A DNA stretch of 64,000 bases, taken from positions 3,782,001 through 3,846,000 of the forward strand of contig NZ_NXNI01000001.1 in NCBI RefSeq assembly GCF_002494345.1, written 5' to 3'. This DNA is from Natrinema ejinorense (lineage in GTDB: Archaea > Halobacteriota > Halobacteria > Halobacteriales > Natrialbaceae). Position numbers and translations under genes: made by a program. The notes below the pieces were generated by a model that was not told the DNA's origin, searched no databases, and saw only the letters and a list, made by a program, of their open reading frames with translations. Positions 5,884-8,966 of the stretch are shown one piece after another. The first letter of the stretch is position 1. Every line of letters begins with the position of its first letter.

Positions 5884-6537
5884 ATGAGATACGTTCGACT
5901 CGAACTATCGACACCGGCCGGTGCCGTCCACCCGGTTGGTCGGGGGCTGGCGACCGAATCGGATCTCGAGCGGGACGAACTGGTTTACCTCGATTCGTTT
6001 CCGGATGGGACCGGGATTCTCCTGTACCGACTCCGCGCTGACGCCGAGCACCTCCGATCACACATCGGGGAGCACCCGCTCGTCCTCGAGTGGGATCTCT
6101 TCGAGGGAACAGGGGCAGACGTCTACTGTTACCTGTCCGTCGACTCCGGCGAACCGGCCTCGACGCTCATGTCCCTCGTCGGTCAGGATGGGCTGATCGT
6201 CGAGACGCCGATCGAGTTCACCAGTTCCGATTCGCTTCGCCTCACCGTCGCAGGAAAAGAGGAGATGATCCAGCACGCGTATCAGTCGATTCCCGAGCAG
6301 TTCGATTGTGTCATCATCAAGACCGGCGAGTACGACCCGACGTGCAAGTGGTCGATCCTCGATTTGACGACGCGTCAGCAGGAGGTGCTTCGAACGGCAG
6401 TCGACATCGGGTATTACGACGTTCCAAAACAGGCGACACATCAAGACATCGCGAACGAACTCGGCTGTGCGACGAGCACCGTCGACGAACACCTCCGGAA
6501 AGCGGAATCCGGGGTCTTTTCGTCGTTGCTAGGCTAG
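5884..6537 (+). CDS. HTH-10 / bacterio-opsin-activator-type regulator
   Basis: A 217-residue DNA-binding regulator. Residues about 1-150 form the variable sensory domain common to haloarchaeal Bat-like proteins. Residues about 158-212 are the HTH-10 domain: LTTRQQEVLRTAVDIGYYDVP, then a recognition helix in ELGCATSTVDEHLRKAES. It is convergent with, and overlaps by 9 nt, the DUF6114 gene on the other strand. The target is unknown; its neighbours make the adjacent envelope cluster a candidate. Confidence 0.88.
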   Translation: MRYVRLELSTPAGAVHPVGRGLATESDLERDELVYLDSFPDGTGILLYRLRADAEHLRSHIGEHPLVLEWDLFEGTGADVYCYLSVDSGEPASTLMSLVGQDGLIVETPIEFTSSDSLRLTVAGKEEMIQHAYQSIPEQFDCVIIKTGEYDPTCKWSILDLTTRQQEVLRTAVDIGYYDVPKQATHQDIANELGCATSTVDEHLRKAESGVFSSLLG

Positions 6538-6969
6538 GGAATCGACGACGCCACGACACCACGAGCGGATCCTCGTCGGAACGGCGTCGGCGAAACCCGA
6601 CGGACCGTCGGTCGCGGCGTCGGCGGGAACCCACGCGATACAGAGCGAGCCGCCGACCATCCCGAGGAACGTCCCGATTCCGAGCCCACCGAGCGCGCCG
6701 AAGATCGAGACGATCGCAAACGCGATCCCGACCGCGCCGAAATACGTCGCGTACTGCGGATAGGCAAGCGAGAGGAGACCGGAGACCAGAACGGGTACAG
6801 CAAGAACCAGCCCGACGAAGACGACGTAGTTCCGCACCATCGCGAATCGGATCACGAGATCGAGCGGCACAGCGGCGATGACGAGGCCGGCTAGCGTGAG
6901 TACGATCCCGCCCCAGAACGGTCGCTCGCGCCGCCAGTCGGCAAACCGACTGCGTCGGTCGTCGATCAT
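6529..6969 (-). CDS. DUF6114-like integral membrane protein
   Basis: A 146-residue membrane protein with four hydrophobic spans between about residues 22 and 112, after a basic N terminus (RRSRFADWRRERPFWGG). The RPFWGG entry into the first helix and the Gly-rich last helix match DUF6114 proteins of actinobacteria as I remember them. It follows the DUF6230-like gene by 7 nt and is surely co-transcribed. The function is unknown; pairing with a DUF6230 protein suggests a membrane partner for an exported or anchored protein. Confidence 0.8.
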   Translation of the reverse strand: MIDDRRSRFADWRRERPFWGGIVLTLAGLVIAAVPLDLVIRFAMVRNYVVFVGLVLAVPVLVSGLLSLAYPQYATYFGAVGIAFAIVSIFGALGGLGIGTFLGMVGGSLCIAWVPADAATDGPSGFADAVPTRIRSWCRGVVDSLA

Positions 6970-6976
6970 TCGTCGG

Positions 6977-7597
6977 TTACCCCGTTGCGTTGTGTTCTTC
7001 CTGACAGTCGATCACTGGTGGGGTGGTGTCCGTCTCCTCGGGATTTGCCACCATCGCGACGTCGAGCTCCTCCAGTGAGAGCTGGGTAATATACTGGTTT
7101 TCCGTCTGGATCGCCCCGTCTTCGATCACGATATCCGGCGATGAGATCCGCATCCGGTCTTCTCCCTCCTCGTATTCGACGACCTGGTCTTCCTCGAACC
7201 TGATATCGCCCTCGAGATGCGTAAACCGCTGATTGAGACCCTCGAACTCCACGTGTTCGGCCTCTATCGACACTCTGAACGTATCGTCCGTGACGGGCAT
7301 CTCGAGGTCTTTGAACAGGTGGAGTCCCTCGATCGTTCCGCTCTGGATGCGCGTCTCGCTGACGGGATAGCGCTCACAGCCTTCGTGGCTCTCCATCGTC
7401 GAGTACTGTTCGAACCCGTCGCCCCGGAGTTCGTCGAACGCGACCGTGAATCCGCCGACACCCGTCGCCGGGACGGCGACGCCGGCACCGACGGATGCTA
7501 CCCCGGCGAGGAAACCGATCAGGACCACGTTTGCGACGAGGAATACGACGACGAATCGCTTGCGATCGATTGGCACGGTTGCGGGGACATTCCCCAT
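6977..7597 (-). CDS. DUF6230-like membrane-anchored protein
   Basis: A 206-residue protein with one N-terminal transmembrane segment (about residues 14-38, RFVVVFLVANVVLIGFLAG) and an extracytoplasmic beta-rich domain. The sequence FTVAFDELRGDGFEQY and the later GTIEGLHLFKDLEMP resemble the actinobacterial DUF6230 family, whose genes sit beside DUF6114 genes exactly as here. I chose the ATG at 7597 because an AT-rich TATA-like box lies just upstream and the residues before it look non-coding. It is 7 nt from the DUF6114 gene. The role is unknown, probably at the cell envelope. Confidence 0.8.
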   Translation of the reverse strand: MGNVPATVPIDRKRFVVVFLVANVVLIGFLAGVASVGAGVAVPATGVGGFTVAFDELRGDGFEQYSTMESHEGCERYPVSETRIQSGTIEGLHLFKDLEMPVTDDTFRVSIEAEHVEFEGLNQRFTHLEGDIRFEEDQVVEYEEGEDRMRISSPDIVIEDGAIQTENQYITQLSLEELDVAMVANPEETDTTPPVIDCQEEHNATG

Positions 7598-7600
7598 ATG

Positions 7601-7614
7601 TATAAGTATAAATT
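7601..7614 (-). promoter_or_regulatory. TATA-like element before the DUF6230 gene
   Basis: Read on the minus strand the sequence is aatttatacttata, about 5-18 nt before the ATG. A second AT-rich box lies near 7632-7638. Either could drive the two-gene operon; the second gives the usual leaderless spacing better. Confidence 0.45.
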
Positions 7615-7789
7615 TGTTCGTGTATAGACGGTCATATAAACGGACCCCGCCGTCCGGATGGAAGGAAGCAACGCGTTGAGCCGGCCAGGCGGTGACGTTC
7701 CCACCGATCGATACTGCCAGTGTCACCGCTGTGGGGTCGAACGATTCCCCACCGATCCGGTCGGCGGAGTTGCGTATCGATCGTCCCCG

Positions 7790-8692
7790 TCACGGCTCGA
7801 GTCGTCGACCGGCGACTGCCACCTCAGTGGCGACGGCGGCCGTTACTGGGGGTCCGACGCGAGGCTCCGTCTCGGACGGTTCGGCAGCCGATGTGTTCGT
7901 CTCGGTCTCGGTTTCCCCCGTTCCGTCCGAATTTCGGACGCCGTCGGTGGTCGAATTCGCTCGCGGCTCGTCGATCGCATCCGTCGTATTTTCGTCGCCG
8001 GAATCAGTACCGTTCGCGGTCGTTTCGTCGGGATCGGTTGCCGTAGTTGTCTCGTTCGAATCGGTCGCGTTCGCAGTCGGATCGTTCGATTCGTTCGCCG
8101 ACCCCTCGGTTCCGTTCTCCGCCGCAGCGGTTTCGGCGTCGTCGGGCGCGGAGAGACCGAAGTGTTCCTCGAGCTCGGGGATGATTCTCTCTCCGACGGG
8201 TGACTGCCGTAACAGGTACACGAGCTGGTCCCACGGCAGGGTGATGATCATCCGGTCGGCCGTCCCGTGTCCGAACTCGATATCGGTCCACGGGCCCCGA
8301 AGCGTCGTCTCTTCGAACTCGACGTCGTCGAGGGTGATGGTCATCGTTTCGTTCGCCATCGACACTCTGTCGAAACACGTTCTCGCCGAGTGGATCTGCC
8401 CGGAGCCGATCTCTATCATGCCCGCCTCGGCGGTGGTGCCGTTACCGGTCGACGATACGACCGCCGACTCCGTGGTGAGGTTCGTCGCGTCCTGCTCGTA
8501 GGCGTTCATCGAGATGTTCTCGAGCTCCGTCGAAAAATCGAGACAGAACGGTTCAGGGGGTCCCTGCTCCTGCGCGACGGACGCGTTCGCTATCGATCCC
8601 GACTGCGAGGGACTGGCGTATACCCCTGCAGGAAGGCTCGCAGCGACGACGATACCGAGACAGAGGGTCAGGAGAGCGGATCGACTGATCAT
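7790..8692 (-). CDS. secreted Asn-X-Ser/Thr-rich protein of the DUF6230/DUF6114 cluster
   Basis: A 300-residue protein with an N-terminal Sec-type signal (ALLTLCLGIVVAASLPAGVYA, about residues 6-26). A folded domain of about 150 residues follows, with two cysteines (PFCLDF and ARTCFD). From about residue 180 there is a Thr/Asn/Glu/Asp-rich stretch with many N-glycosylation sequons (NGT, NES, NAT, NET, NTT, NST). The C-terminal 25 residues are mildly hydrophobic (VGPPVTAAVATEVAVAG) and could be an anchor. The glycosylated linker is typical of haloarchaeal surface proteins. It is transcribed in the same direction as the DUF6230 and DUF6114 genes, separated by 192 nt. No enzymatic motif is visible. 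Confidence 0.75.
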   Translation of the reverse strand: MISRSALLTLCLGIVVAASLPAGVYASPSQSGSIANASVAQEQGPPEPFCLDFSTELENISMNAYEQDATNLTTESAVVSSTGNGTTAEAGMIEIGSGQIHSARTCFDRVSMANETMTITLDDVEFEETTLRGPWTDIEFGHGTADRMIITLPWDQLVYLLRQSPVGERIIPELEEHFGLSAPDDAETAAAENGTEGSANESNDPTANATDSNETTTATDPDETTANGTDSGDENTTDAIDEPRANSTTDGVRNSDGTGETETETNTSAAEPSETEPRVGPPVTAAVATEVAVAGRRLEP

Positions 8693-8966
8693 GTTCGAGT
8701 ATGGTGTTTGCTAACAGAATGTCAGTCGTGTCAATATCTATTGCCGAGGGTATGTCCGGGATTTTATCCGAGACAGTCGTTCGACACCGAATTCGAGTCG
8801 GAACCCAGGACGGTCCCTCGGTCGATGTCGCCGCAAAAGCGTCGGGGCCGACGATACCGAGACAGAATTCGTCTCCGGACGTGAGTTCGAACACCGGCCC
8901 GGTGCAGGACACCGTTGCCCGTCGTCGCTGCGGATCGATCCACACGCAACGCCGCGCGCCGCGTCC

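Follow-up and report, generated by a model that had tools for sequence, protein, structure and literature searches.

The window examined here comprises 64,000 nucleotides (nt) of the haloarchaeon Natrinema ejinorense (contig NZ_NXNI01000001.1, positions 3,782,001 to 3,846,000 of the forward strand). It contains a locus in which the genes for a DUF6230-like exported protein and a DUF6114 membrane protein lie beside those for a regulator and for a secreted protein rich in Asn-X-Ser/Thr (N-X-S/T) sequons, referred to below as the third gene. This locus is real and conserved. On balance, we favor the view that it encodes an envelope module that handles hydrocarbons or comparable neutral lipids, and that the genome holds this module in two diverged copies. 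The likely function is what is new here; it is reached via links to the Geobacillus proteins P21 and P16 and to the R2-like ligand-binding oxidases (R2lox), neither of which was part of an initial sequence-only reading of the DNA. The features of the locus are:

5884 to 6537, plus strand: regulator with HVO_0513_N (PF24278, 115 bits) and HTH_10 (PF04967, 67 bits) matches, convergent to the set
6529 to 6969, minus strand: DUF6114 membrane protein of 146 amino acids (aa), from PF19609 and hydropathy
6977 to 7576, minus strand: DUF6230-like protein, from PF19741, orthology and a conserved GTG start
7577 to 7651, minus strand: candidate DUF6230-DUF6114 promoter region, with TTTATA-like boxes and a CCGnCnATA-like stretch (six loci aligned)
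7790 to 8692, minus strand: third gene, sequon-rich secreted protein of 300 aa, from a signal-like N terminus and sequon count
8732 to 8769, minus strand: conserved block upstream of the third gene, ATAAAnnCCCGGAnATAnCC...AATAnnTAT, kept in 6/6 aligned loci

All four genes are open reading frames. The arrangement that the sequence-only reading had described is borne out, with the DUF6114, DUF6230-like and third genes all on the minus strand and the HTH_10 regulator converging on them and overlapping the 3' end of the DUF6114 gene by 9 nt. The DUF6230-like gene ends at 6977, leaving 7 nt between it and the DUF6114 gene.

Relationship to P21 and P16 of Geobacillus

Kato et al. (2009; PMC2676291) report that alkanes strongly induce the proteins P21 and P16 of Geobacillus thermoleovorans B23, longer chains more so, that both are found in the insoluble (membrane) fraction, and that their mature N termini were sequenced. 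The published P21 peptides match the DUF6230 protein in two genomes of the Anoxybacillus family (loci L118 and L119) at 16/17, 16/16, 19/19 and 18/19 residues, and those of P16 match DUF6230 proteins of other genomes at best at 14/16 (N-terminal) and 16/18 (internal). On the strength of these peptides, P21 and P16 are DUF6230 proteins. A DUF6114 gene lies directly downstream of the P16-like genes, and the P21 gene is followed by one encoding 380 aa with DUF6114 at the C terminus (49 bits). At the P21 locus L140, the gene order is thiolase, kinase-like, alcohol dehydrogenase, aldehyde dehydrogenase, R2lox, P21, DUF6114 protein, and secreted 382-aa protein, the R2lox scoring 509 bits against a cut-off of 194. 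A second paper (PMC10867098) describes R2lox as an alkane monooxygenase, reports the same cluster in G. kaustophilus, with GK2770 as the P21 ortholog, and cites a Halorientalis in which hexadecane upregulates R2lox.

The DUF6230-like protein of the window fits the P21/P16 group in being exported, in its mature N terminus of the xPxxGVGGF type (9/17 and 10/16 residues identical), and in having a DUF6114 gene downstream. By analogy with the sequenced N termini of P21 and P16, the mature protein would begin near VPATGVGGF, and its hydrophobic N terminus is probably a cleaved signal peptide (residues 1–34) and no anchor. The earlier description of this protein as anchored is thus doubtful because N-terminal sequencing of the Geobacillus homologs implies removal of the hydrophobic segment, which makes DUF6114 a plausible membrane holder of DUF6230. 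The two systems also differ. P21 and P16 are bacterial, whereas the window has an HTH_10 regulator and an upstream sequon-rich secreted partner, and R2lox adjoins the P21 gene in its cluster, whereas the window copy has none beside it. A search of titles and the beginnings of abstracts found no work linking P21 or P16 to haloarchaea.

Two kinds of locus and their association with R2lox-like genes

Among 145 genomes sampled from the class, DUF6114 occurs in 13, from 3 of 58 genera, and DUF6230 in the same 13; within the genus Natrinema, DUF6114 is present in 18 of 29 genomes. Two kinds of locus can be distinguished. Type A, to which the window locus belongs, consists of the third gene, DUF6230, DUF6114, and the convergent regulator, and is complete in six genomes. 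Type B consists of a diverged pair and a related regulator that is divergent and upstream, and the third gene of the window is absent from it. The type-B regulator lies within ~2.5 kb of the pair in 17 of the 18 loci of the genus (L059 is the exception, and the regulator in L061 is short), and of six named type-B loci looked at for it, five have a methyltransferase gene between regulator and DUF6230. N. ejinorense carries one locus of each type, and N. salsiterrestre (L088) likewise has both pairs. Its type-B locus (L003:8419-13588), ~1.2 Mb from the window, holds, within ~5 kb, the pair and genes for the related regulator, an SCP2-like protein, and an R2lox-like oxidase, along with a methyltransferase remnant of 121 aa. 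Also beside this pair is the gene for a stand-alone 206-aa membrane protein (L003:10642-11262), similar by eye to the extra membrane segments that are fused to DUF6114 in Halorientalis-like and Geobacillus-type genomes (L014:6589-8595 and L118:2092-3234).

The R2lox-like genes were found by searching the 145 genomes for the ribonucleotide-reductase small-chain family (PF00268), which yielded a subgroup near the type-B pairs, and then by a profile built for that subgroup. NCBIfam labels it R2-like ligand-binding oxidase with a score below cut-off (101 versus 194 bits; NF006200), and these proteins are therefore called R2lox-like only. Their di-metal ligand residues (E74, E111, H114, E187, E221, and H224) are invariant in eight sequences and agree with the E, ExxH, E, and ExxH ligand set of R2lox. 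R2lox-like genes are present in six of the 145 genomes of the class sample, all within the 13 having DUF6114, and in 10 of the 29 genomes of the genus, all within the 18 having DUF6114. In nine of these ten, they lie 4.1 to 14 kb from the type-B DUF6114 gene (4.2 kb in N. ejinorense), and the third gene is found in all ten. By a rough estimate, the 9/10 linkage would arise by chance with a probability of 2e-16, and the values from Fisher tests are 0.002 for the association of R2lox-like genes with DUF6114 in the genus and 5e-7 for that with the third gene (R2lox-like in 10/11 genomes with it and 0/18 without); all three figures ignore shared ancestry and are therefore a rough guide only.

In one Natrinema cluster (L161, genome G160), Fer2, R2lox-like, two SCP2-like, acyl-CoA dehydrogenase, AMP-ligase, SDR, regulator, methyltransferase, DUF6230, and DUF6114 genes are accompanied by one for a secreted 373-aa protein, and one Halorientalis-like genome groups R2lox-like, Fer2, two SCP2, and two acyl-CoA dehydrogenase genes. 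The type-B arrangement of Natrinema thus resembles the GK2769–GK2782 alkane cluster of G. kaustophilus (R2lox is GK2771; PMC10867098) in bringing together R2lox, DUF6230, and fatty-acid oxidation genes. Unlike that cluster, it includes a ferredoxin, two SCP2-like proteins, a methyltransferase, and an HTH_10 regulator, and its R2lox-like protein belongs to a divergent subfamily (101 bits against the cut-off of 194).

When named genomes were scanned for a haloarchaeal DUF6114 pattern, 26 loci were recovered, 18 of them with a DUF6230 gene upstream, and such loci were also found in Natrialba, Halopiger, Haloglomus, Halorientalis, Halorutilus, Anoxybacillus, Marininema, and Salinibacillus. DUF6230-DUF6114 pairs occur in actinobacteria, and the suggestion that the pair is common to both domains of life is upheld by its presence in haloarchaea, Halorutilus, and Bacillota. 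Plasmids searched by tblastn with a DUF6114 query from Bacillota gave no match. Halorientalis-like genomes have arrays of DUF6230-DUF6114 pairs (L012, L013, L016, and L019), including DUF6230 joined to five PKD or to PA14 domains and a fusion of DUF6114 to an ectodomain, and in an Ods metagenome-assembled genome (L084) and in Halorutilus salinus (L090) six DUF6230 paralogs stand in a row upstream of a single DUF6114 gene. A match to the DUF6230 profile (E 3e-8) is given by a secreted protein that Anoxybacillus encodes downstream of DUF6114. Of two Bacillota secreted proteins in that position, one (L080:4892-5824) matches the profile and the other (L140:12296-13444) resembles only its start.

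The DUF6230 and DUF6114 proteins

The assignment of the membrane protein to DUF6114 is secure, its PF19609 score of 85.2 bits being well above the curated cut-off of 27.9, and its hydropathy is consistent with approximately four membrane segments. That of its neighbor to DUF6230 holds in part. The window protein itself scores 25.1 bits, narrowly missing the PF19741 cut-off of 27.5, whereas same-site orthologs (28.7 bits in G143 and 30.3 in G153) and the second copy in the N. ejinorense genome (30.0 bits) are above it. The window protein, which is 62% identical to the G152-type protein in L088, is hence filed by orthology as a divergent DUF6230-like protein. The GTG codon at 7576 is conserved in 10/10 loci compared, together with the boxes upstream of it, and is probably the start of translation, rather than 7597 or 7726. 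A gap between the third gene and the DUF6230-like gene, put at 192 nt in the sequence-only reading, is indeed present, but with this start its size becomes 213 nt.

The trees of the two proteins, built from 23 adjacent pairs of 24 (Haloglomus was left out), co-vary with r 0.76, the best of 2000 permutations reaching 0.34. An AlphaFold2 model of a 206-aa version of the DUF6230-like protein, with a mean predicted local distance difference test score (pLDDT) of 81, predicts an all-β domain with long strands at residues 50–184. A sequence search of solved structures gave no confident match for it. The Pfam entries PF19741 and PF19609 give no function, and a literature search turned up one passing mention of DUF6230 and none of DUF6114.

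The third gene and repeats in secreted partners

Neither Pfam nor NCBIfam has an entry that matches the third gene at E ≤ 1, and a search of solved structures with its sequence found nothing. Its product has a signal-like N terminus and 13 N-X-S/T sequons, compared with 3.3 expected from shuffling (13 was reached in 0/2000 shuffles). Eight of these fall in the tail, where 2.4 are expected, in keeping with the sequon-rich tail originally noted. In a low-confidence AlphaFold2 model, the chain is folded up to approximately residue 180, and the tail that follows is probably disordered.

In a profile search, the third gene was found in 11 of the 29 Natrinema genomes, all 11 within the 18 having DUF6114, so the co-occurrence anticipated by the sequence-only reading is observed. 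It is no chance neighbor. It adjoins DUF6230 in 10 of the 11 genomes and has DUF6114 at its site in 6, and is thus bound more closely to the former. The idea of a trio as a fixed unit does not survive: type-B pairs are without the third gene, and a search across the genus revealed five reduced sites, located beside a DUF359 gene (PF04019 in the window, where it adjoins the third-gene site; recognized in other genomes by its N-terminal sequence). At four of the 11 third-gene sites, the third gene and DUF6230 are kept and DUF6114 is gone, one of the four retaining the regulator; the fifth reduced site has a third-gene fragment and the regulator, DUF6230 being gone. Two further candidates were rejected. 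A relationship of the third protein to DUF6230, for which the register looked suggestive by eye, gave a local hhalign score of 19.8, which falls among the scores of 60 column-shuffled controls (highest 23.4), and two weak matches outside the genus (G110 and G039; E 0.004–0.008) were lost in an iterated profile.

The tails of three third-gene relatives (G153, G156, and G160) contain an 11-residue repeat, with lag-11 identity of 0.46–0.60 compared with 0.22–0.26 for the 99th percentile of shuffles at their best lag. The same period is found in a secreted protein encoded downstream of type-B DUF6114 (G146, G156, and G160), at 0.31–0.43 compared with 0.19–0.20. These sequon-rich type-B proteins (L161:16655-17776, L162:16389-17459, and L165:17531-18466) are unrelated in sequence to the third gene of the window. 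Amphipathic moments at 98 degrees, determined for four of the six repeat tails, were 1.03–1.52, as against 0.48–0.52 in shuffles. Repeats of 11 residues coat lipid surfaces in perilipins and apolipoproteins, and the haloarchaeal repeats are like these in being amphipathic with a lag of 11. They are unlike them in that the proteins are secreted and sequon-rich, and the repeat is not detectable in the window protein; perilipin- and apolipoprotein-type Pfam scores of the repeat proteins are weak and far below cut-off.

The regulator and upstream elements

The regulator is present at all six complete type-A sites. A search of the N. ejinorense genome with it gave 42 matches, the window regulator counted in, of which the best paralog (129 bits, the next scoring 89) adjoins the second DUF6230-DUF6114 pair. 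Because this best paralog is the type-B regulator, the regulator and the pair appear to belong together. The conserved block at 8732 to 8769 is a probable promoter or operator, and the stretch from 7577 to 7651 the probable promoter region of the DUF6230-DUF6114 genes. The third gene and DUF6230 are each preceded by a conserved block of their own, an arrangement suggestive of two promoters at the locus.

Proposed role and alternative explanations

In the mechanism that we infer for the window locus from homology and co-occurrence, DUF6114 would be a small integral-membrane part. DUF6230 would be exported, lose its signal peptide, and stay at the membrane, probably held by DUF6114, where its extracytoplasmic β-domain may contact a hydrophobic compound. 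On the cell exterior, the third protein would cooperate with DUF6230 and would probably be glycosylated and surface-active, and the adjacent HTH_10 protein would control the set. The window copy would share the role of its type-B sister.

A number of observations weigh against such a role. The nearest PF00268 match to the window pair in its own genome is >200 kb away, 8 of the 18 Natrinema genomes having DUF6114 are without an R2lox-like gene, and that of G147 is unlinked, ~460 kb from the type-B DUF6114 gene. In Halorientalis-like genomes, the R2lox-like and DUF6114 genes are at least 129 kb apart, and common ancestry confounds any co-occurrence seen inside a single genus. According to Kato et al. 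(PMC2676291), no P16 or P21 disruptants were obtained, and fatty acid and triacylglycerol gave no induction of the two proteins. Among solved structures, the DUF6230 fold found at best a Foldseek E of 0.04 and a Z of 3.3, which lends nothing to lipid binding. The third-protein model is poor (pLDDT 47.5, best at residues 104–178), and neither the 11-residue period nor the amphipathic moment is seen in this protein, lag 11 being outside its top lags. Finally, the joining of DUF6230 to PKD or PA14 domains in Halorientalis-like genomes suggests wider surface uses.

This last point leads to the strongest alternative, which we nevertheless regard as unlikely, namely that the pair is a general surface-display or envelope module in which DUF6114 clamps exported DUF6230 domains and the cargo (PKD, PA14, or sequon-rich partners) varies by lineage, hydrocarbons being one use among several. 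The DUF6230 fusions, those of DUF6114 to an ectodomain or extra membrane segments, the sixfold DUF6230 rows of Halorutilus and the Ods genome, and the genus genomes that have DUF6114 and no R2lox-like gene would all fit such a module. It leaves unexplained, however, why in both Geobacillus and Natrinema, which are separate lineages, the pair has R2lox and genes of fatty-acid oxidation for neighbors, and why alkanes induce P21 and P16. Less probable again is that the window copy is a relic or a re-purposed paralog outside any hydrocarbon system. The reduced sites, with DUF6114 lost at four and DUF6230 at a fifth, and the distance of the window locus from any R2lox could be read in this way, but its four genes are open, its promoter blocks and start codon are conserved across loci, and the third gene accompanies every R2lox-like gene in the genus. 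An enzymatic role for DUF6230, for instance as a sterol or ester hydrolase, is very improbable: PMC2676291 notes an N-terminal similarity of P21 and P16 to a Streptomyces lavendulae cholesterol esterase that is negligible over the whole length, and with F50 and P78 as the sole invariant residues in a 27-row DUF6230 alignment no conserved catalytic set is visible.

The preferred reading of the locus as a hydrocarbon or neutral-lipid module admits a more ambitious version, which we put forward tentatively and consider doubtful as a whole. Archaea and Bacillota may have in common an envelope machine that takes up hydrocarbons or waxes. In it, DUF6114 would sit in the membrane and DUF6230 would be the exported receptor for the hydrophobic compound. 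Haloarchaea would add a secreted, glycosylated coat protein with perilipin-like 11-residue repeats that covers oil surfaces, the whole being wired to an alkane oxygenase pathway of the Mn/Fe R2lox type.

Concluding remarks

To our knowledge, the uptake or tolerance of insoluble hydrocarbons at the archaeal surface is poorly understood. The relationship described here means that a salt-loving archaeon has surface proteins related to ones made by a heat-loving bacterium on oil. Candidate genes can now be named in Natrinema and Halorientalis-like genomes and tied to a bacterial system whose induction by alkanes has been published, and two families of unknown function, DUF6230 and DUF6114, would thereby gain a first concrete, testable role.

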